Part shown: positions 8,706 through 64,000 of the stretch, piece after piece | How positions within the stretch are numbered: the first letter of the stretch is position 1 | Layout of the letters: each line of letters begins with the position of its first letter | NCBI GenBank assembly: GCA_002717365.1 | Contig: PBDJ01000022.1 | Coordinates: 52,815-116,814 of the forward strand | Length of the DNA: 64,000 bases | Reading direction: 5' to 3' | Source of the DNA: Acidimicrobiaceae bacterium | GTDB lineage: Bacteria; Actinomycetota; Acidimicrobiia; Acidimicrobiales; MedAcidi-G1 | Notes under the pieces: model-generated | What the model saw: the letters and a program-made list of their open reading frames with translations, nothing else | Databases searched by the model: none | Told to the model about the DNA's origin: nothing | Made by a program: the position numbers and the translations under genes

Positions 8706-10277
8706 GTGCCACCTGCTTTTCGACCGTTCGGCGTCCGCCGGCGGACGCTCAGGAGCGCCTGGATGCTGCTGCGGTCCGGTGACCTGGCCGGCTTCGCCCG
8801 GCGGGTCTGGAGGCGCCTGAGGGGCCTCTGGAAGACCCTGGAAAGCAACACAGACCTGATCGACCACGGGGAGTGGCGGAAACGGTGGGTGGATCTCACG
8901 GAGCGGGACCGAGAGGTAGCGGCTGGATGGAAGTCAGCGACGCTATTCGCCGTGGCCGTGGGCAATGGCCCGCCCGGTGCCGTGGCGAGCACGGTGGCGT
9001 CCCTGGGGGCCCAGTTACACGACCGATGGGCGATCGGGGCCGAGGCCGAAGACGCCAACTGGGTGGTGGAACTCGAGGCCGGGGTGGTACTCCACCCGGC
9101 GGCGTTAGCCACCGTGGCCCGGGCTATAGACACCAACCCTGGCCTACGCCTGGTGTACGCAGACCACGACCACCTGGACGACGGGGGGCGACCTGTCGAC
9201 CCGTGCTTCTTGCCCGACTGGAACCCGGACCTGTTCGAAGGCTTGGGCTGGATCGGAGCCCTGGTGGTCCGCCACCAAACAGTGGACGCCAAGCAGGTGA
9301 CCGGCCTAGACGGTGGGATAGTCCATCACCTGCCTTTCTTGCTGGCGTCACGGCCGACCCGGTTACGCGACGCCGACCCGGCACCAGTTCGCCATCGGTG
9401 GCCGGTGGACAATCCACCGCCCCGGGTGTCGGTGATAGTCCCGACCCGGGACCAGGGGCGTCTTCTGGAGGCCTGCCTGACCAGTCTGCGCGGCCGCACC
9501 CGGTATCCGGATCTGGAGGTCGTGGTGGTCGACCATGACACCACCGAGCGGCGGGCCCGAAGGCTGATCGACGGGCTGGCCGATAACCCGGATGCCGTGG
9601 TGGTGCCGTTCACGGGCCCATTCAACTTCGCAGCGATGTGTAACCGGGGGGTGGAGGTGGCCTCCGGTGAGGTAATCGTGCTACTCAACAATGACACCGA
9701 AGTGGTGGCCGACGACTGGCTAGACGAGTTGGTGGGCCAGCTGGCCCGTCCGGAGGTCGGGGTGGTTGGGGCGCTGCTACTTTTCGCCGACGGGACGATC
9801 CAGCACGCCGGCGTGCATCCGGGGGTGGGAGGCCTGATGGGCCACGGACACAAGCACCGTCCGGGCGATGATCCCGGCTATCACGGACGACTCACTGTGG
9901 CCCACGAGGTAGCGGCGGTGACCGGTGCCTGCCTGGGTATCACTCGAAAACTGTGGAACCGACTGGGTGGGTTGGATGAAGAACACCTGGCCGTGGCCTA
10001 CAACGACATTGACCTGTGTCTGAAGGCCCGGGCGGCCAACCTGCGCGTGGTCCTGACCCCTCATGCAGTGTTCCACCACCACGAGTCGGTATCACGGGGC
10101 TACGACGAGGACCCGGTACGCCGAGCCCGGCTACAGCGCGAGGTGGCGGTCATGGAGGAGCGGTGGGGCGACGCCCTACACGCCGACCCGGCCCACAGCC
10201 CGAATCTGGCCCTGACGGGCGACGGTTTCACGCCGGCCGCAGTCCCCCGGGTAACACCCCCGTGGCGAGTCCGATAG
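8706..10277 (+). CDS. Glycosyltransferase family 2 (rhamnosyltransferase-like, degenerate N-terminal plus catalytic C-terminal domain)
   Basis: RVSVIVPTRDQGRLLEACLTSLRGRTRYPDLEVVVVDHDT...GEVIVLLNNDTEVV...GACLGITRKLWNRLGGLDEE. GTG start at 8706 is a suggestion; the upstream part of ORF 8529 overlaps the divergent gene. Confidence 0.87.
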   Translation: MPPAFRPFGVRRRTLRSAWMLLRSGDLAGFARRVWRRLRGLWKTLESNTDLIDHGEWRKRWVDLTERDREVAAGWKSATLFAVAVGNGPPGAVASTVASLGAQLHDRWAIGAEAEDANWVVELEAGVVLHPAALATVARAIDTNPGLRLVYADHDHLDDGGRPVDPCFLPDWNPDLFEGLGWIGALVVRHQTVDAKQVTGLDGGIVHHLPFLLASRPTRLRDADPAPVRHRWPVDNPPPRVSVIVPTRDQGRLLEACLTSLRGRTRYPDLEVVVVDHDTTERRARRLIDGLADNPDAVVVPFTGPFNFAAMCNRGVEVASGEVIVLLNNDTEVVADDWLDELVGQLARPEVGVVGALLLFADGTIQHAGVHPGVGGLMGHGHKHRPGDDPGYHGRLTVAHEVAAVTGACLGITRKLWNRLGGLDEEHLAVAYNDIDLCLKARAANLRVVLTPHAVFHHHESVSRGYDEDPVRRARLQREVAVMEERWGDALHADPAHSPNLALTGDGFTPAAVPRVTPPWRVR

Positions 10278-10432
10278 GCCCGGCCAGACGTTAGTTAGTC
10301 AGGACACTTGGCCTTGACTCCAGACAAGGAGATCTAAGACAACGTTGGAAGCCCTGCGCTTTTTTCATACTCGTCGTGGAGGGAAATAGGGATATTTCAT
10401 AAGAGGCCGTCGTTCAGGGCCGATTGCCGGAT

Positions 10433-11701
10433 TCAGAGCGACTCGGTTGTGTCCGAAACCGTCAATCTTCCCGGGTCATGGAGTGAGAAGAGGAGGAAAA
10501 GAAGTGCCAAGGTCCCGATCATCGGGATGGAATTCTCATGGGTCCATTGAAAGAGCCATACGTGCCTACCGATAACTGAATCAACTACAGCTTCAACGAT
10601 CGACATGGGCACTGGCCACGCGACTACCGAATAGGCAACCAAGAACAGCACCCATTTCCAGGTTCTTCCCATGACACACAGGCGGGAGAATGCTACGGCA
10701 AACGGAGGAATGAGGAGGCAGAGGTAGTACGACTCGCCATGCGGTATCAGTAACAATACTGAGGTGAGCAGAATGGACCATTGAATCGACCAGTCACTTG
10801 AACCTCTCCGACTCCAAAGCCAGAAGCAGAGCGCTAACCCTGCAGCAATAAGCACCACGATTGAAATGGCAATCCCGGTCGACTCATTCCCCTGGTCCCC
10901 AACTGCCCGCATTATGAAGCCCGATAAAGCCTGATTTTGTGGGTGGTCAAAGAAGTTGATCTCACTGTCGACATCCACAACTGTCCTCAACAAGAGGTTG
11001 TTCTGCCACCCCAGCGTCAACTGAGTGACTACCGCTATTACGGCAAGTGTCGTCATCGACACTGCCCCTGCTCGCCGTCGGCGTGCGAGAAATAGGGCGG
11101 GAATGAGTACTGCAGGCAGATACTTGACCCCGGCCGCTAACCCGAGAAGAAATCCTGTCGCAGTGTCTCTACGACTGCCGAAGGTGACAAAGGCAGCGGA
11201 GATCAGCAACAGCTCAAGCAACTCAACATTCCGCTGCCCAAGGGCCTCAAGCGCAGGTGCAAAGTTGAATACAACGAAAATCAGTCCCGCGAGTGCATAG
11301 CCATTTGGGAGTTCTCTTCTCAGATGCCAGATCAGCAACAAACCTGTGACGACAAACCCACCGGCTGCCACAAAGAGGAGGAACCGATATGCGGTATCTC
11401 GATCGGGAAAAAGAAATAGCGGAATGGTGACTAGGTGGAGGATGGGCCCATAACTCCATGAGGTTCCCTCATGCCATTCGGTCACCAGTCCCGAGTAGAA
11501 ACCATCTGTCTTACCAAACCATTCGGCCAATCTGGGTGCAGGCCACGAACCAAGGAAATCACTAGCGGCATTCGGAATCCCGTACCGAAACAGAAAGACA
11601 ACAAGGCGCGACGCCGAAAGGACCGCTACACCAAACAAAGCCAATCGGGTATTCCGAGTTAGCCGACTGACCGCGCCAGTCCGATCTTCATACTCCATCA
11701 T
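10433..11701 (-). CDS. Polytopic membrane glycosyltransferase, GT87/DUF2029-like
   Basis: Many hydrophobic segments; NVELLELLLISAAFVTFGSRRDTATGFLLGLAAGVKYLPAVLIPALFLARRR resembles GT87-type proteins. Confidence 0.65.
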   Translation of the reverse strand: MMEYEDRTGAVSRLTRNTRLALFGVAVLSASRLVVFLFRYGIPNAASDFLGSWPAPRLAEWFGKTDGFYSGLVTEWHEGTSWSYGPILHLVTIPLFLFPDRDTAYRFLLFVAAGGFVVTGLLLIWHLRRELPNGYALAGLIFVVFNFAPALEALGQRNVELLELLLISAAFVTFGSRRDTATGFLLGLAAGVKYLPAVLIPALFLARRRRAGAVSMTTLAVIAVVTQLTLGWQNNLLLRTVVDVDSEINFFDHPQNQALSGFIMRAVGDQGNESTGIAISIVVLIAAGLALCFWLWSRRGSSDWSIQWSILLTSVLLLIPHGESYYLCLLIPPFAVAFSRLCVMGRTWKWVLFLVAYSVVAWPVPMSIVEAVVDSVIGRHVWLFQWTHENSIPMIGTLALLFLLFSLHDPGRLTVSDTTESL

Positions 11702-39306: not shown

Positions 39307-40755
39307 ATGAATAGACGGTTGGTCCCGGTTGTCCCGGCAGCGTTCGCGGTTGCCGTCTACGCACCACTCATCTTCCGTCGCTCAGCGTGGAGTGATGACT
39401 TCCCATTGCTCCTCAACAGCAGCTCGACGAAAATTTTCTCCGATGGCCGACCGGTGCTGACGGTCTTGAATCGACTGGTGTTCGGCTCCGTGGACACAAT
39501 CGGCGAACTGGCAGTCGCCCGAGGGATCGGGCTCCTAGGCATCGCCTTCCTTCTCGCATATCTAACCCGACTTCTCCTAGAACTCGGTTGGTCACCAAAG
39601 GCAGCAATCCTTACCGGCATGTCGATCGGGCTCCTCCCGCCGTTCCATGCCTACGCCGGCTGGGCAACCGTGTTCTCGTTCCCCTGGATCATGCTGCTCA
39701 GCGCGTTTGCGGGCCACCGGTGGCTCCAAGCGCTCGAAGACCGACGCCGTGCTGGTGCCGGCTTCGCGATGGTCGCTATGACGCTTGCCCTCCTCGCCTA
39801 CCCACCTGCCGCGATGTTTTGCTGGGCCCCGCCCGCACTCCGGCTTCTCTGCCGGCCGACCGGCCCGCGGAGCGCCGTCGTGGACGCCTGCCGCACCGGC
39901 CTGCTCGTCGCCCTCTCCGGTTCTGTCAGTCTGCTCATCGCACGACTCACCATGACCCTTCTCGATATCCAGGCAGATCCTCGATTCCAGTTCATCGACT
40001 CGATCCCCGAACTCGTTGAGAAGGCACGTTGGTTCGCCACCCGCCCGCTTGGGATAGCCGCCCGACCGTTTCTCATCTCCAGTCCGAGTGACCTGATAGG
40101 CCTGCTCACCGCAATCCCTGTCCTGATCTTCCTTTCTTTCGGCTTACTGCTCCGGTTCAAGGGACCTATCGTCCGGCGCCTGGCCACCATGGCCATTCTC
40201 GGACTGATGGCCGCCCTAACCATGCTCAGCCACCTCCTGTCGGTTGAAAATCAGGTCGAATACCGGTTCATGGCGGGCCTCATTGTGGTGACATGGATCG
40301 CGCTCGTTGTCGCAGGACGGGAACTGCTCAGCCGGACTCTCGCTCGGTTTGGGATCGGGATCGACATCGCAACGATCGGCGTACTCGCCATGTCGCTGGT
40401 TATCGTTCCAGCAACGGTGGCGGCTCAACGCAACGTCAACCAGGTCTTTGTCCGACCTGCGGTGATCAAAGAAGCTCACCTACTCGAGCAACTCAGCGGC
40501 TTTGATCCCGAACAACATCACCGCCTCATCGTCATTGATGCACCTGGATCCTGGCCGACACGGCAGAACTTGGGCATCTACTCAGTCCGCACCGATCTCG
40601 CCCATTCCTGGGTGATCAGGGACAACCTGCGGCTCCTGCTCGCGGAGTCGTTCGACTTCGACGTCACCCCTGAAATCCGGGTCGTGGACAAGCCGAGCGA
40701 TCCCCATGCCGGCGAGTTCGTCATCGATCTCCGTCCTCTAGTCAGTCGCCTCTGA
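39307..40755 (+). CDS. Polytopic membrane protein, possible GT-C/GtrII-like glycosyltransferase
   Basis: Many TM segments after an N-terminal YAPLIFRRSAWSDDFPLLL, with acidic residues in the first loop as in GT-C enzymes. Confidence 0.5.
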   Translation: MNRRLVPVVPAAFAVAVYAPLIFRRSAWSDDFPLLLNSSSTKIFSDGRPVLTVLNRLVFGSVDTIGELAVARGIGLLGIAFLLAYLTRLLLELGWSPKAAILTGMSIGLLPPFHAYAGWATVFSFPWIMLLSAFAGHRWLQALEDRRRAGAGFAMVAMTLALLAYPPAAMFCWAPPALRLLCRPTGPRSAVVDACRTGLLVALSGSVSLLIARLTMTLLDIQADPRFQFIDSIPELVEKARWFATRPLGIAARPFLISSPSDLIGLLTAIPVLIFLSFGLLLRFKGPIVRRLATMAILGLMAALTMLSHLLSVENQVEYRFMAGLIVVTWIALVVAGRELLSRTLARFGIGIDIATIGVLAMSLVIVPATVAAQRNVNQVFVRPAVIKEAHLLEQLSGFDPEQHHRLIVIDAPGSWPTRQNLGIYSVRTDLAHSWVIRDNLRLLLAESFDFDVTPEIRVVDKPSDPHAGEFVIDLRPLVSRL

Positions 40756-40939
40756 AATACCAGTTGGACTTTTCGGTTCGCCGGTCAGACCAGTTCCGGC
40801 CCCCGCAGAGCACCGAGGGATACCGTCGGTCAATGCCGTCGCGGATTACCGACGCCGAAGCCCGCCAGGTGATGGTCGACACTGGCCTGGAGCCGCTGGA
40901 GCCACATCTCGGTCACACACACCACACCCAAGAGCGATG

Positions 40940-41029
40940 ATGAAGCGCCTTGGCCATTCGTCGATCAATGCCACTCTCGATACCTACAAGCACCTGTTCC
41001 CCGCTCTCGACGAGGCACTGACAGAATGA
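40940..41029 (+). pseudogene. Decayed tyrosine recombinase (phage-type integrase) C-terminal remnant
   Basis: MKRLGHSSINATLDTYKHLFPALDEALTE*, the R(L)GHSSIxxTLdTYxHLFP motif around the catalytic His/Tyr; no upstream catalytic domain; reading past the TGA gives LDEQFQNAISN, suggesting nonsense decay. Confidence 0.75.
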
Positions 41030-41157
41030 CTGGACGAACAGTTCCAGAACGCCATTTCCAACGACACGCGGCCTGTTCGCGGCCTGAGCAAACTCCCGCT
41101 GTCCGCCTTAAAACTCCAGCGGCGACGAAACACCTTTTCAAACAGGATTTTTATCTG

Positions 41158-41204
41158 TCGGGCTGCCAGGATTTGGACCCGGGACCTTCGATACCCCAGA
41201 TCAC
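41158..41204 (-). repeat. 3' half of tRNA-Pro(GGG)-like sequence (anticodon arm to discriminator base)
   Basis: Minus strand gtgat-ctggggt-atcga-aggtc-ccggg-tccaaat-cctgg-cagcccg-a: anticodon loop CT-GGG-GT, 5-nt variable loop, T-arm with five paired positions (one G-T), 7-nt acceptor 3' strand. No 5' half seen. Confidence 0.65.
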
Positions 41205-41297
41205 AGAAATCTACCCAGGGTGTTCTCCTGAAAGGAGTAACTTTGCGGCCGTCTCACGCCGTGCCAACAGCGGCACCTCCATCTTGGATCTGATTCA

Positions 41298-42437
41298 ATG
41301 ACTTTGACCATCCCCTTCAACAAGCCGAGTGTCGAAGGGCGAGAGATTGAGTTGGTGTTAGCCGCGATTGAGAGAGGTGAGACCGCCGGTTCAGCCGAAT
41401 CCGCTGTCGCAGCCGTTGGCATCCTGCAGGAAGAACTCGCGGCTGAAGATGTTCTGCTAACCACCTCTTGCACCGCCGCTCTTGAATTGGTCGCGCTTCT
41501 TCTCGACATTAAGCCGGGCGATGTTGTGATCGTGCCTTCGTTCACCTTCGTGTCTACAGCTGTTTCCTTCGTCCGGTCCGGAGCCAAGATTCGGTTCGCT
41601 GACATCGACCCTGTCACTCTTGGCATCGACGTCGACCATGTCGCAGAACTTCTCGACGATCGGGTTCGGGCGGTGATCCCCGTGCATTATGCGGGCATCG
41701 CAGCCGACGTCGATCGACTCGTAGAACTATCCCGTAGCAATGCATTCGACATTGTCGAAGACAATGCTCATGGCCTGTACGGGCGGTTAAACAACAAGCC
41801 GCTCGGATCGTTTGGGAGATTTTCAACGCTTAGCTTCCACGAGACAAAAAATTTCACCTGTGGTGAAGGTGGTGCGCTAGTGGTGAACCGTCAATCCGAT
41901 GTCGACCGAGCTCACACTCTCTGCGACAAGGGAACCAACAGACGAAAGTTTCTTACCGGAGCTGTCGACAGTTACACCTGGGTTGACACAGGCTCTTCGT
42001 TTCGCCTGTCTGGTCTTCTCGCTGCGTTCCTTCAGGGTCAGCTGGAACAACGATCTCCTATCCTTGCGAAGCGAGCTGCAGTTACCGAGGCGTACCGAGA
42101 GCGGCTAGCTCCGCACTCCGAGGAACTCGGCTTCAGTTGCATTCCCGACCTTGACAACCGGCTGTCACCGTGTCACATGTTCTACGTGCTACTTGACTCC
42201 CGGCAATCCCGCGACCGGGTTCTCACCGAACTTCGTCAAGCGGGCATCATGGCCACGTTTCACTACGTGCCATTGCATTCATCGCCCGGAGCAACGCGAT
42301 TCGCTGACGGAAATGGCGATTGCCCGGTTACCGAAGACATCAGTGGTCGACTGCTCCGGCTCCCGTTCTTCAACTCGCTGACCATTGACGATATCGAGAT
42401 CGTGGTTGATCGATTCCTTCGATCAGCTAAGCACTGA
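41298..42437 (+). CDS. DegT/DnrJ/EryC1/StrS aminotransferase, dTDP-4-amino-4,6-dideoxygalactose transaminase (WecE/RffA)-like
   Basis: IPFNKPSVEGREIELVLAAI...SCTAALELVALLLDIKPGDVVIVPSFTFVSTA...VHYAGIAADVDRL...FSTLSFHETKNFTCGEGGALVVN...KGTNRRKFLTGAVDSYTWVDTGSSF. Confidence 0.9.
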   Translation: MTLTIPFNKPSVEGREIELVLAAIERGETAGSAESAVAAVGILQEELAAEDVLLTTSCTAALELVALLLDIKPGDVVIVPSFTFVSTAVSFVRSGAKIRFADIDPVTLGIDVDHVAELLDDRVRAVIPVHYAGIAADVDRLVELSRSNAFDIVEDNAHGLYGRLNNKPLGSFGRFSTLSFHETKNFTCGEGGALVVNRQSDVDRAHTLCDKGTNRRKFLTGAVDSYTWVDTGSSFRLSGLLAAFLQGQLEQRSPILAKRAAVTEAYRERLAPHSEELGFSCIPDLDNRLSPCHMFYVLLDSRQSRDRVLTELRQAGIMATFHYVPLHSSPGATRFADGNGDCPVTEDISGRLLRLPFFNSLTIDDIEIVVDRFLRSAKH

Positions 42438-42482
42438 AGCACTCCTGTCGTACCATCCATCAGTACCGAAAGGACTGGGCAC

Positions 42483-43439
42483 ATGACCACCGGGGTTTCT
42501 GAACTCGCCAGCAGCCCCCTGCTAAGCGTTGTCGTACCTGTATACGGGTGTGTGGATTCACTTCCCGAGTTGGTCCAGCGAGTGGTATCGGCAGTTGTAG
42601 AAGCTGACTGGGCTGCAGAGGTGGTCCTGGTCGACGACTGTTCTCCTGACGACTCCTGGTCGACTATTGAGTCGCTGGTCAGTTCTCGGAACGAGGTTGT
42701 GGGTGTCCGCCTCTCTAGAAACTTCGGTCAACACGCCGCGATAACCGCTGGTCTCGCTATCTGCAAAGGGCAAAAGGTCGTTGTCATGGACTGCGACCTA
42801 CAAGACCCTCCCGAACTCATCCCCGAGATGCTCGGACTCGCGGTCGAATACGACGTGGTTCTAGGACGCCGGCAAGGCAACTATCAAAGTCGTCCTCGCC
42901 TATTACTTGCCCGAATCTACAATCGCTTGGTATCGGCTATGGCGGGTGCTCAATTCGATCCTGCTATCGGCACGTTCAGTCTGGTTGACCGCAAGGTCGT
43001 CGATGCGTTCCTAAAACTAGGCGAGCACGACCGACATTTCATTTTCGCTATTCTTTGGCTGGGCTTCAAACAGACAACGATTGATTTCCAGCGGCAACCT
43101 CGTTCCGTGGGAGCAAGCAGTTACACCTTGCGGCGTCGGTTTGGCCATGCCATGCACGGAATCATGTTCCAGAACACAAGATTTCTCGGCCTCGTTGTAT
43201 CCACAGGCTTCATCACCGCCGCACTCGGTAGTGTTCTCGGTGTCTACACGATTATCCGCCGCATTACTGCGGACACCCTTCCCGGCTGGACAAGCACAGT
43301 CGCATTACTACTCTTTGTATTTGGCGCCTTAGTGACCATTCAAGGTGTCATTGGTCTCTACATTGGGCGTATCTTCCAGGAAGTAAAGGGTCGCCCGTCA
43401 TACCTCATTGACCATGTCCTACGAGCACCCGAATCATGA
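42483..43439 (+). CDS. GT2, ArnC/GtrB/DPM1-like polyprenyl-phosphate glycosyltransferase
   Basis: LLSVVVPVYGCVDSLPELVQRVV...VDDCSPDDSWSTIESL...LSRNFGQHAAITAGLAICKGQKVVVMDCDLQDPPELIPEML plus C-terminal TM helices. Confidence 0.9.
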   Translation: MTTGVSELASSPLLSVVVPVYGCVDSLPELVQRVVSAVVEADWAAEVVLVDDCSPDDSWSTIESLVSSRNEVVGVRLSRNFGQHAAITAGLAICKGQKVVVMDCDLQDPPELIPEMLGLAVEYDVVLGRRQGNYQSRPRLLLARIYNRLVSAMAGAQFDPAIGTFSLVDRKVVDAFLKLGEHDRHFIFAILWLGFKQTTIDFQRQPRSVGASSYTLRRRFGHAMHGIMFQNTRFLGLVVSTGFITAALGSVLGVYTIIRRITADTLPGWTSTVALLLFVFGALVTIQGVIGLYIGRIFQEVKGRPSYLIDHVLRAPES

Positions 43440-43469
43440 CCGGAACAACTTTGATTTGGGGTAGGTCAA

Positions 43470-44183
43470 GTGGACCCCAAGGACAAGGCTCTGATCTCGA
43501 AAGAACCCGGAAATGAACCAGTGACGGATCTTACGTGCACGGTTGTCACGGATGGAGAAGAGAACTGGTTTGTGCCCTACGCCCAGGATCTCGTACAGCA
43601 ACTCGGACACATGGCCGACGTGTCTCTCGTATTCACCCATGACGAGGTCGAGAGTTGCGACATCGTCTTCTACCTCAGCTACTACTCGATTGTTCCCGAA
43701 GAGGTTCTTTCTCTTGCCCGGAACAATATCGTCGTTCATGAGAGTGACCTTCCAAGAGGACGCGGCTGGTCACCTCTAACATGGCAGGTTCTCGAGGGCC
43801 GTAATCAGATCACTATTTCCCTATTCGAAGCCAACCCTCTGGTGGATACTGGAGTGGTATATGTCAAAGAATGCCTCGAACTTGAAGGAACAGAACTCAT
43901 CGATGAGATACGCGCTCAGGCTGGACAGATCAAAGTTTCAATGTGTCGACAATTCGTTGAGAATTACCCAGAAATAATTCAGTCCGGAATTCCACAAACT
44001 GGAGACTCCACCTACTACCCACGCAGAACATTGTCCGACAGCAGACTTGATCCGGAAGATACGATTTCACGGCAGTTCAACCTGCTACGCGTTGTAGACA
44101 ATAAACGTTATCCGGCCTTCTTTGAATTCTTGGGGCGACGATACCTGTTGAGGATTGAAGCCGCCGATACTCAAGACCCTTAA
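43470..44183 (+). CDS. Methionyl-tRNA-formyltransferase-like sugar N-formyltransferase
   Basis: CDIVFYLSYYSIVPEEVLSLARNNIVVHESDLPRGRGWSPLTWQVLEGRNQITISLFEANPLVDTGVVYVKE; sugar N-formyltransferase-like catalytic region. Confidence 0.82.
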   Translation: MDPKDKALISKEPGNEPVTDLTCTVVTDGEENWFVPYAQDLVQQLGHMADVSLVFTHDEVESCDIVFYLSYYSIVPEEVLSLARNNIVVHESDLPRGRGWSPLTWQVLEGRNQITISLFEANPLVDTGVVYVKECLELEGTELIDEIRAQAGQIKVSMCRQFVENYPEIIQSGIPQTGDSTYYPRRTLSDSRLDPEDTISRQFNLLRVVDNKRYPAFFEFLGRRYLLRIEAADTQDP

Positions 44184-44227
44184 GGGTTGAACCGAGTACT
44201 CGTCGCCACGGCCTGCGGATTCACTTG

Positions 44228-44272
44228 TTGGGCTTGGAAGATTTGAACACCCGACCTTCAGTCCCCAGGCCG
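44228..44272 (-). repeat. Second, more degenerate tRNA-Pro(GGG)-like 3' fragment
   Basis: Minus strand ctggggactgaaggtcgggtgttcaaatcttccaagcccaaca aligns by eye with ctggggtatcgaaggtcccgggtccaaatcctggcagcccgaca of 41158-41204, same orientation, ~3.07 kb away. Confidence 0.5.
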
Positions 44273-52328: not shown

Positions 52329-53551
52329 CAGACCTCAAGTTCTGGCACAGCGGTAACGAAGGTTCCTGACCAGTCACGGATGTAGTCCAACTGGCTGGCG
52401 ATCTCCTCGCGAAGGTTCCACGGGAGGACCACGACGTGATCAGGGCGTCGGTGCACAATATTCGCCTCATCGACGATTGGGATCTTGCTTCCCGGCATGT
52501 ATTTGCCCTGTTTTATGGGGTTTCGGTCGGCGACGAAGGAAATCAGGTCAGAATCCACTCCGGCGTAGTTGAGAAGTGTGTTTCCCTTAGCGGCGGCACC
52601 ATACGCCGCCACCGACTTCCCTTCATCTCGAGCCGTCAAGAGGAACGTAACAAACTCATTCCTGATGTGGTCAGCACGATCCTGGAAGCCGGAATAGTAC
52701 TCAGCCGATGCCACGCCGGCCTCAGCCTCCAACGCCCGAACGGCATCAACTCTCGGCCTCGGCAAGGAACTACCGCTGTCCACATGTTGAGCGAAAACTC
52801 GCAGGCTTCCACCATGGGTGGTTAGGCGTTCAACGTCGAAGACCGTCAGGCCAGCCGACGATAGGACCGTCTCTACCGCCGCGAGAGAGAGGTACGAGAA
52901 GTGCTCGTGGTAAATGGTGTCGAACTGGGCAAGTGCGACGAGTTGCAGCACATGGGGGAACTCGAAGGTCGCGACTCCACCATCTGCAAGAAGAGTGGAA
53001 CAGGCGGTCGCAAAGTCATTGATATCGGGCACATGGGCAAGCACGTTATTGGCAACAAGAAGATCCGCTTCCGGGCCTAGACCGACAAGTTGGTCAGCGA
53101 GGCCGGCGGTGAGAAACTCTTCGATGACTGTCAGGCCGAGCCCACGAGCAATAGCCGCTGATCGCTCTGTCGGTTCTATTCCCGTGCAAGCCATTCCTCG
53201 GTCATGGAACCATCGCAAGAGCGTCCCGTCATTGGAAGCCACCTCTATCACCTGACTGCTCTCTGTCAAAGCGAATCGTTCGACCATCTCCTCGGCAAAC
53301 CGACGACAATGCGACACCCATGTTTCGGACTGTCCACTGAAATACGCATAGTCGGCATCGAAGAGGACGTCAGCTCTGACAAAGTCCTCCGTTTGCACTA
53401 ACCAACATGATTCGCAGACCAGAACCCGAAGCGGAAACCGCGCCTCCGGGGCCCCGAGAGCGTCATGACATAGGTAGGCGTTGGACGGAGGCGAACTACC
53501 GAGGTCTACGAAAACAAGATCAACAGGTTCTCGACAGTGCCGACAGATCAC
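52325..53551 (-). CDS. Sugar C-methyltransferase (NovU/TylC3-like)
   Basis: MICRHCREPVDLVFVDLGSSPPSNAYL Zn-binding N-terminus; VIEVASNDGTLLRWFHDRGMACTGIEPTE; FDTIYHEHFSYLSLAAVETVLSSAGLTVFDVERLTTHGGSLRVFAQH. Confidence 0.9.
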   Translation of the reverse strand: MICRHCREPVDLVFVDLGSSPPSNAYLCHDALGAPEARFPLRVLVCESCWLVQTEDFVRADVLFDADYAYFSGQSETWVSHCRRFAEEMVERFALTESSQVIEVASNDGTLLRWFHDRGMACTGIEPTERSAAIARGLGLTVIEEFLTAGLADQLVGLGPEADLLVANNVLAHVPDINDFATACSTLLADGGVATFEFPHVLQLVALAQFDTIYHEHFSYLSLAAVETVLSSAGLTVFDVERLTTHGGSLRVFAQHVDSGSSLPRPRVDAVRALEAEAGVASAEYYSGFQDRADHIRNEFVTFLLTARDEGKSVAAYGAAAKGNTLLNYAGVDSDLISFVADRNPIKQGKYMPGSKIPIVDEANIVHRRPDHVVVLPWNLREEIASQLDYIRDWSGTFVTAVPELEVW

Positions 53552-58225: not shown

Positions 58226-59550
58226 GCGTCGAGTCTCCGTAACTCTCGATTCGTCCAAATCCCCGAGATGACCGCCAACGCCACATGTCCTAGTAGGCAT
58301 GCATATGCCGCTCCGCGCATTCCCCACTCCGGGATCATCACCAAATTGAGCAGCACCGCCACTGCTCCACCAAGGACCTGGGGAGGACCTATTCCTCTCG
58401 GCCTGCTGAACCCAACCAAGAGCGACTGGTACATGAAGTAGATAGACAACACCATCTCGGCAATCGTCACTATTGCGAGGATGCCGAGAGCCTCTCTGAA
58501 ACCCTCACCGAACACCGCCAGAAGGAGCGTTGAGCCGACTACGGCTGATATGCCCAAGATGAGCACCTGTGCGACGACAAAGAGCCTGGCGTAGCGCCGC
58601 ACCGCTTTTACTGGATCGACGCCACTACGGCCACGATCTGCGATCACCTGACCGAATGCCTTCGGAACAATCCGAAGTGTCTCAGGGATAGCCAGAGCGA
58701 CCACATACAACCCGAGAGAATCGGCGCCTGCGACCGCAGCCAAGATGGCCCGATCAGAACGAAGGGCGATGAAGATCGATACCTGCCCGAGCATCGGATA
58801 GAAGCCATCGGTAATCAGGCTCCGCCAGTGCGTCGTTAGGCCAAGCCCGGCCTTCTGTCGAACTTGTACAACCTGGCCGATAAGCCAGCTAGCACCGAGC
58901 ACCAACCCCAGAGCCATCGTCAGGATGGCCGAGGTCGAGCTGAGCCGTCCGCTCATCAGCAGACCAACTACAACGAAGGCTTCACTGACACCAATAATCA
59001 CCTCGGCCATTAGGACATTGCGATACCGACGAAGCCCGTAGAGCACGGCGACCGCGGAGTTAAACAGCATCGTGGCCAAACTCAAGGCAAAGATCGCCAG
59101 CGAGAACTCCCAGGTCATGTAAAAGGAGGTCAGCGAAATCACTCCAACCGATGCAGCTACTAGCAAGGCCTGAAGCGGCAGAAGTGCGATTGACAGCGAT
59201 ACGACGTCTCGTGGCCCTACTGGATCAGTGGGCCTAAGAAGCCGTATGCGACCGCTAGTGGGCGTCCCAGCATTGGCGACATGTGTCGTCGCCCAAGCGA
59301 TGGTGAAGGCGAGGGCAATTTCTCCTCGACCAACCGGTCCAAGATGTCTGCCGGTGATGACTACGAATGCAAAACCAACAGCGGCATTTGCGAGGCGCGA
59401 TAGAAAAACGATCAAGACCTCGCCTCTGAGCCTCTGGAACCAACTTTCTAGTTTCTCGCCACCCAGCCATCGGCTTATAAGGCTCACATCGTCCACCCAC
59501 TCGACCGACCGGGCCCCCAGAGGCGAGTTCGGCGACCCAGGCGACGACAA
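58222..59550 (-). CDS. Wzx-like polysaccharide flippase (MOP superfamily)
   Basis: VLIVFLSRLANAAVGFAFVVITGRHLGPVGRGEIALAFTIAWATTHVANAGT, ~12 hydrophobic segments. Confidence 0.82.
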   Translation of the reverse strand: MSSPGSPNSPLGARSVEWVDDVSLISRWLGGEKLESWFQRLRGEVLIVFLSRLANAAVGFAFVVITGRHLGPVGRGEIALAFTIAWATTHVANAGTPTSGRIRLLRPTDPVGPRDVVSLSIALLPLQALLVAASVGVISLTSFYMTWEFSLAIFALSLATMLFNSAVAVLYGLRRYRNVLMAEVIIGVSEAFVVVGLLMSGRLSSTSAILTMALGLVLGASWLIGQVVQVRQKAGLGLTTHWRSLITDGFYPMLGQVSIFIALRSDRAILAAVAGADSLGLYVVALAIPETLRIVPKAFGQVIADRGRSGVDPVKAVRRYARLFVVAQVLILGISAVVGSTLLLAVFGEGFREALGILAIVTIAEMVLSIYFMYQSLLVGFSRPRGIGPPQVLGGAVAVLLNLVMIPEWGMRGAAYACLLGHVALAVISGIWTNRELRRLDA

Positions 59551-63783: not shown

Positions 63784-64000
63784 TCAGGCCAGGGCGCGAA
63801 TCAGGAATGCGGCCATCTCAGCTCGGGTGACGAACCGGTCCGGGCAGAACGAGGTAGGCGAACAACCAGAGGTGATACCACTCGCCTCCAGCGAAGCGAT
63901 CTCAGCCCCGAAGAAGTGGCCCCCAATGTCGGAAAACGGCATATCTCCTGCGGCAGATAAACCGAAGCCACGTACGAGAAATGCGGCCATCTCAGCTCGG
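63784..64000 (-). CDS. SLH-type repeat protein, C-terminus only (runs off right edge)
   Basis: MAAFLVRGFGLSAAGDMPFSDIGGHFFGAEIASLEASGITSGCSPTSFCPDRFVTRAEMAAFLIRALA*, same repeat type as the protease at 20534. Confidence 0.85.
   Translation of the reverse strand, partial: RAEMAAFLVRGFGLSAAGDMPFSDIGGHFFGAEIASLEASGITSGCSPTSFCPDRFVTRAEMAAFLIRALA

Follow-up and report, generated by a model that had tools for sequence, protein, structure and literature searches.

Cis-mobilizable elements (CIMEs) and the tandem accretion of islands of the integrative and conjugative or integrative and mobilizable type are known, for example, in Streptococcus and Streptomyces (PMC5704250). Integration in the anticodon loop of tRNA genes is a recognized class of Islander-type islands; only islands with an integrase of their own qualify in the Islander survey, in which arrays of three or more are rare (4 in all; PMC4383910). 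Tycheposons of Prochlorococcus and Methylophilaceae are cargo-carrying elements of 4 to 200 kb (PMC10872708), and in actinobacterial integrative and conjugative elements (AICEs) such as pSAM2, tRNA remnants have been inferred to be integration sites (PMC3218068). Here, we describe a 64,000-nucleotide stretch (the window; positions 52815 to 116814 of contig C29) of an Acidimicrobiaceae genome assembly (1.87 Mb, 78% complete), in which three sugar-modification genes lie between two 3' halves of a tRNA-Pro(GGG) gene. This trio is probably one unit, bounded by attachment (att) sites, in a decayed tandem at tRNA-Pro(GGG) scars.

Half-tRNA units of this kind, which we found in the window and in related genomes, resemble CIMEs and accreted islands in that att sites are kept, integrase and transfer genes are lost, and the units stand in tandem at one tRNA gene beside an element that has an integrase. 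They differ in size (0.8 to 4 kb, with one to few genes) and in sharing their arms, the sequences that adjoin the half-tRNAs, across at least five genera; no conjugation genes were recognized in the Acidimicrobiales units read. As in Islander-type islands, the tRNA is rebuilt, a displaced 3' fragment lies in the same orientation, the crossover falls in the anticodon loop, and the integrase is a phage-type tyrosine integrase, but most Acidimicrobiales units have no integrase and would be missed. Tycheposons likewise occur in marine streamlined bacteria, with tRNA borders, a tyrosine recombinase, and turnover of island cargo. The Acidimicrobiales units are mostly smaller, and the window unit lies below the tycheposon size range; the tRNA halves and integrase remnant of the window may correspond to tycheposon borders and recombinases in general type only. 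With AICEs, they share an actinobacterial-type tyrosine integrase, the tRNA 3' end, and tRNA remnants as possible sites, whereas no replication or transfer genes were recognized next to the intact Acidimicrobiales integrases read. Integrons, too, hold small gene units in arrays and exchange them at a fixed site, but in Acidimicrobiales a tRNA half with arm sites serves as att, and the integrase is not IntI and need not sit in the array. The system departs from the known ones by its unit size, the absence of an integrase from most units, and its recurrence across genera, and we found no prior description of it in Acidimicrobiales in the open-access literature.

Half-tRNA copies around three sugar genes

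Both window copies are att sites on the minus strand. The left copy (41158 to 41200), located by pattern search and BLAST, consists of the anticodon loop CTGGGGT, a 5-nt variable loop (AGGTC), a completely paired T-stem with one G-U (CCGGG/CCTGG), and the acceptor strand CAGCCCG followed by A. Its T-loop reads TCCAAAT instead of TTCAAAT, so a normal tRNA is not expected from it. The right copy (44228 to 44270) is more decayed. It is 88% identical over 42 bp to the intact tRNA-Pro, has a 1-base deletion near the anticodon loop, and contains one mispair in its T-stem (GGGTG/CTTCC). Both copies have diverged from tRNA-Pro(GGG), and they lie in the same orientation. The original prediction, made from the letters of the window, had described this left half with its loops, paired T-arm, and acceptor strand, a diverged right copy in the same orientation, and exactly three genes between the two; all of this is present.

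A search of the 1.87-Mb genome with the pattern AAGGTCN5TTCAAATCN5AGCCC (≤3 mismatches) returned 8 matches, compared with 0 in a reversed control. The four best were the intact tRNA-Pro(GGG) gene (C1:1282-1357), a fragment at C12:3599-3641, and the two window copies; the 123-kb contig that holds the window has no further att copy. In a BLAST comparison with 109 kb of the same genome, the 41158 copy was matched with an E value of 2e-82 (278 bp, integrase included) and positions 44225-44266 with 5e-7, and the similarity of both fragments to the host tRNA-Pro(GGG), which the original prediction had proposed to check, is thereby borne out. Random tRNA-like sequence, or decayed tRNA-Pro duplications unrelated to integration, might also account for such copies, and neither ARAGORN nor Rfam (gathering threshold) reported a tRNA in the window. 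Such silence is to be expected of half genes. The E values and the empty control speak against this explanation, as do an arm-binding repeat at exact spacing and an arm common to four other contigs (see below), and the continuity of an integrase coding sequence with the left copy already contradicts it. We regard this explanation as extremely improbable.

The T-stem alleles of the two copies differ (GGGAG-like on the right, CCGAG-like on the left). Such a difference is expected from successive integrations rather than from duplication of one sequence, and the window copies, decayed as they are, may well stem from successive integrations.

All three genes between the copies are on the plus strand. 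The first (41298 to 42437) encodes a WecE-like dTDP-4-amino-4,6-dideoxygalactose transaminase of the DegT family (NF008687, 420 bits with a cut-off of 375; PF01041, E value of 5.6e-73). The second (42483 to 43439) matches PF00535, with both NF047588 and NF007986 below cut-off, and its product is predicted to be a membrane glycosyltransferase of family 2 (GT2), an ArnC/PgfS-like polyprenyl-phosphate sugar transferase. The third (43470 to 44183) encodes a sugar N-formyltransferase-like protein (PF00551, 27.9 bits with a cut-off of 26.1; ArnA and PRK06988 models below cut-off). If the three products act as known members of their families do, they would make a 4-formamido-4,6-dideoxyhexose and transfer the sugar to a polyprenyl carrier. 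The genes fill the interval, with just 44 and 97 bp of noncoding DNA at its ends, and no integrase or transfer gene accompanies them. As in a CIME, the 3.07-kb window unit thus has att sites at both ends (the one at 44228 decayed) and has neither integrase nor transfer genes. No parent element with transfer genes was found for it.

Integrase remnant and arm sites

The left copy adjoins a feature absent from the original prediction, a C-terminal remnant of a tyrosine integrase (40925 to 41107, plus strand), which was recognized by homology and comprises the last 61 codons with one in-frame TGA. To place it, we used a comparison set of 48 family genomes, that is, the window's own genome (G000) and 47 others; named matches to the family were marine metagenome-assembled genomes (MAGs) labelled Acidimicrobiales, Microtrichales, or Candidatus Microthrix. 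The remnant is 85% identical in amino acids to the intact 376-aa integrase of G009:C175. In nucleotides, positions 40923-41200 are 84% identical over 278 bp to C1:1048-1325, at the intact tRNA-Pro gene of G000. The matching integrase end there (~80 to 90 codons; PF00589, E value of 7.5e-8) runs toward that gene. Intact copies of the integrase (376 aa) were found only in G009:C175 and G019:C3, at an equal distance from tRNA-Pro(GGG), and show the catalytic set R, HxxR, H, and Y in their sequence. The closest phage and plasmid relatives are merely 28 to 35% identical, the closest named ones being actinophage and plasmid integrases, and the score with the IntI-type model TIGR02249 is 47.8 bits, against a cut-off of 265. 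Relatives of the integrase end also adjoin tRNA-Gly(GCC) and tRNA-Val(TAC), at L159 (G019:C13, ~892-1229) and L160/L102 (G056:C68, ~58520-58857), which suggests that close integrases may have changed their target tRNA.

The remnant contains the R site (CAGGCCGCGAACAGGCCGCG; 41067 to 41086, minus strand, 0 mismatches), a candidate arm-binding site of the integrase at +71 from the tRNA 3' end. Nothing else on the 123-kb contig matches it with three or fewer mismatches, and the +71 spacing recurs in G000:C1, G009, G012, G019, and G021. In G000:C1, the window, G012, and G017, all that is left of the integrase is its last 55 to 93 codons; in the first three, the surviving part holds the R repeat.

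The core pattern was present in 27 of the 48 family genomes, with no control matches, and we compiled a table of 52 core copies. A normal 5' half of tRNA-Pro(GGG) precedes the core in 26 of the 52, and the T-stem is completely paired in every one of these. The remaining copies have other sequence, mostly recurrent arms, in place of the 5' half, starting at the anticodon loop; a few of these nongene copies are cut by a contig end at the anticodon loop, and in some the T-stem pairing is relaxed. Arm A, common to units of several genera over ~110 to 130 bp, had no match in phage and plasmid collections. Arm B occurs in G015:C175, G056:C2:7609, JASMKJ010000111 (L139), and, more weakly, G058:C18. 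In the window, a distal arm of type B (...AGATTTCTGTGA; 41201 to 41230, minus strand), identified by arm B alignment, is joined to the left half-tRNA at the anticodon loop. It is identical to the G015:C175 arm at 24 of 30 positions (p=0.001 compared with random 60-mers of the window, a value that ignores the exact position of the arm at the half-tRNA junction). Next to the right copy, a short proximal flank (CAAGTGAATCCGCAGG; 44212 to 44227, minus strand) resembles proximal arms (GCAGG at +11), and in a BLAST match with G002:C38, the similarity goes beyond the half-tRNA as far as 44212 (82% over 55 bp; E value of 1.6e-9).

Fixed spacings characterize these arms. In arm A, the 20-bp R repeat, CAGGCCGCGTACAGGCCGCG, ends 107 to 109 bp (98 bp in a few copies) upstream of the crossover; in the integrase-bearing arms, including, with no mismatch, the window copy, it begins 71 bp downstream. 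A second motif, GCAGGTCAG, stands at -18 and again at +10 or +11. Repeats on both sides, in two spacing classes ~10 bp (one DNA turn) apart, have the form expected of putative arm-binding sites of a lambda-type integrase. The half-tRNA sites also cluster near contig ends, with 23 of the 52 within 700 bp (9.8 expected) and 9 within 100 bp (1.9 expected), consistent with repeats or strain mixtures at the locus. At G000:C1:1, G021:C34, G022:C36, and G020:C32, contigs end exactly at the anticodon-loop crossover.

The remnant, the left att copy, and arm B might alternatively be the uncut attP of a single element with cargo on both sides, the copy at 44228 being an older, unrelated scar. Serotype-converting phages have the gene order int-attP-gtr. 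The cargo to the right would be the trio, and that to the left the gene at 39307 to 40755 (plus strand), which ends 170 bp before the integrase remnant and encodes a polytopic membrane protein, a possible pathway partner outside the interval, with no Pfam or NCBIfam match. In favor of a single element, a C-terminal homolog of this protein (43% amino acid identity) also abuts an integrase remnant in G012:C51, a similar protein (recognized by eye) lies near a transaminase-GT2 pair in G013:C75, and the 44228 copy is more decayed than the one at 41158 and has no arm. However, arm A and the d1 integrase arm stand at opposite ends of one unit in G000:C1, and the order arm A-att-int in G012:C51 is the boundary of two units. 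Elsewhere, arm B precedes att sites with several different proximal arms and is therefore not a fixed partner of the window's integrase arm. A single element is thus an unlikely source of the arrangement.

Integration and unit exchange at the tRNA-Pro locus

Integration has taken place at the tRNA-Pro gene of G000 and of its relatives. In G048:C18, an empty site, the DNA next to the tRNA-Pro gene is the flank found behind an arm-A half-tRNA on contig C6 of G050 (508 of 542 positions identical). The site in G050 is occupied, with the left flank and tRNA on C17 and the arm A-att-right flank on C6. Another empty site, in the close relative G001 (C28), has a tRNA with the T-stem CCGAG joined to a terminator-like flank. 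The tRNA-Pro of G000 has the T-stem GGGAG, an adjoining integrase end, and a left flank 91% identical to that of G001, whereas the displaced CCGAG half is found on C12, joined to the native, terminator-like flank and followed by a 1.9-kb insertion and then by G001's right flank (91%). Such an allele pattern would be expected if an incoming element had swapped the 3' half of the tRNA gene, and the intact tRNA on C1 with its same-orientation displaced 3' fragment on C12 has the form by which Islander recognizes islands. Just before an arm-A half-tRNA, the cargo at G000:C12:2-3385 (minus strand) encodes a long protein that looks secreted and contains Thr-rich repeats, and G056:C2 has a comparable gene ahead of an arm-A site.

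Contigs change partner at the half-tRNA. L137 and L151 agree at 1997 of the 2000 positions leading up to the half-tRNA and cease to be related 7 bp beyond the tRNA end; these two and L142 are in MAGs labelled Verrucomicrobia, Euryarchaeota, or Poseidoniales and are most likely misbinned. Contigs C125 and C175 of G015 are identical in the att site and downstream of it (112 of 112 positions), whereas upstream one has arm A and the other arm B. Two genera share a three-gene ABC-transporter unit at 96.6% identity over 3.8 kb. In G056, G001, and L137, an azlCD pair (85 to 91% identical) is found next to att sites. Units between half-tRNA copies, mostly without an integrase, include seven complete ones besides that of the window (0.8, 1.0, 1.0, 1.6, 2.3, 2.9, and 3.0 kb). 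Examples of their cargo, named by eye, are a TM2-like protein, a xanthine-dehydrogenase-like protein, a dehydrogenase with an acyltransferase, and AzlCD.

The original prediction took same-orientation tRNA 3' halves for att repeats. Because of the empty and occupied pairs, the swapped and displaced T-stem alleles, and the contigs that change partner, and in keeping with the integrase remnant, the arms at the anticodon loop, and the repeats at fixed distances, the sequence data strongly support the view that the half-tRNA copies are attachment-site repeats of site-specific integration.

A circular form that could be assembled from G020:C32 and G058:C18 was dropped, since a unit cut at both att sites, together with a neighbor with an equal proximal arm, explains the permuted order equally well. 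Same-orientation pairs of tRNA-Pro(TGG) occur in G014:C52 (21990/25272, 3.3 kb apart; both intact according to ARAGORN) and G050:C22 (62278/62967, 0.7 kb) and possibly represent a parallel array at another proline tRNA gene.

Proposed origin of the trio and its possible meaning for marine Acidimicrobiales

In our proposal, elements enter tRNA-Pro(GGG) by recombination at its anticodon loop, carried out by a phage-type tyrosine integrase. The tRNA 3' half brought by an incoming element would rebuild the gene, and the displaced half would mark the far end of that element. Repeated integration would then leave units head to tail between same-orientation half-tRNAs. For the small units that have no integrase, the enzyme would presumably act in trans, or the units would be remnants. 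The trio unit would have its tRNA-proximal end at 44228 and its arm-B end at 41158, and to its left would stand the integrase-end remnant of a second element. In tRNA orientation, the window reads half-tRNA (44228), short flank, formyltransferase, GT2, transaminase, arm B, half-tRNA (41158), and integrase-end arm, an order that corresponds to one unit and then the start of another.

The att pair, now decayed, lies within a larger region of low GC content. From ~10 kb onward, the GC content of the window is 50 to 64%, as opposed to ~67% on the rest of the contig. This low-GC region is a surface-glycan island of ~54 kb, encoding sugar-nucleotide enzymes, glycosyltransferases, a flippase-like protein, and similar genes (named by eye except where Pfam was run). 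Its left edge is marked by a GC drop from ~0.67 to 0.56 at ~10000-10500 of the window, where no tRNA or att copy was found. An imperfect direct repeat of ~190 bp at 63803-64000 runs past the right edge of the window into L020.

Given this setting, the trio might have been assembled by homologous recombination within the glycan island, with the att copies as old scars and no att unit at all. The low GC and glycan-related content of the whole 54-kb region fit such an origin, as do the genome-specific flanks and the decay of the att copies. Against it, the trio exactly occupies the interval between same-orientation att copies, arm B starts exactly at the junction, and the noncoding DNA at the ends amounts to only 44 and 97 bp. 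We consider assembly by recombination alone quite improbable.

Several observations weigh against reading the trio as an att-bounded unit. The integrase remnant is broken and lies outside the interval, where Islander would require an integrase within; no intact tRNA-Pro was found on the window's contig; and alignment of the upstream side of the right copy with the tRNA 5' half, arm A, and arm B gave no signal. GC content shows no change at either att copy, being even throughout the island. The trio and its flanks are absent from the 47 other family genomes, the flanks being unique to G000, so an empty-site comparison is impossible for the window interval. Finally, the transaminase-GT2 pair in G013:C75 (54% amino acid identity) has no tRNA or att fragments and a host-like GC content of 69%, and because of the nearby relative of the 39307-40755 protein, the pathway cluster may extend left of the att copy at 41158. 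The original prediction would have been undermined by relatives that carry the three genes without the fragments; G013, with two of the three, is such a relative only in part. Its proposal that the trio moved as an island unit is made plausible by the position between two att copies and by arm B at 41158, which forms the distal end of other units. Entry of the trio as one unit is what we infer, and mobility of exactly these three genes is plausible but unproven.

More broadly, though tentatively, the data raise the possibility of integron-like exchange on one tRNA gene, in which integrase-less, single-operon units, each flanked by a tRNA-Pro(GGG) 3' half with conserved arm sites, would swap between marine Acidimicrobiales genera by means of a phage-type integrase supplied in trans. 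Truncated integrase genes would be retained for the arm-binding repeat in their last codons, and with each exchange the essential tRNA-Pro(GGG) would have its T-arm swapped. For integrase-less units, which island finders that require an integrase miss by design, the 43-bp half-tRNA and its arms are a readable marker. If true, such exchange would explain why assembled genomes break at the tRNA-Pro locus and how small metabolic and surface-sugar operons are swapped among uncultured, streamlined marine Acidimicrobiales.

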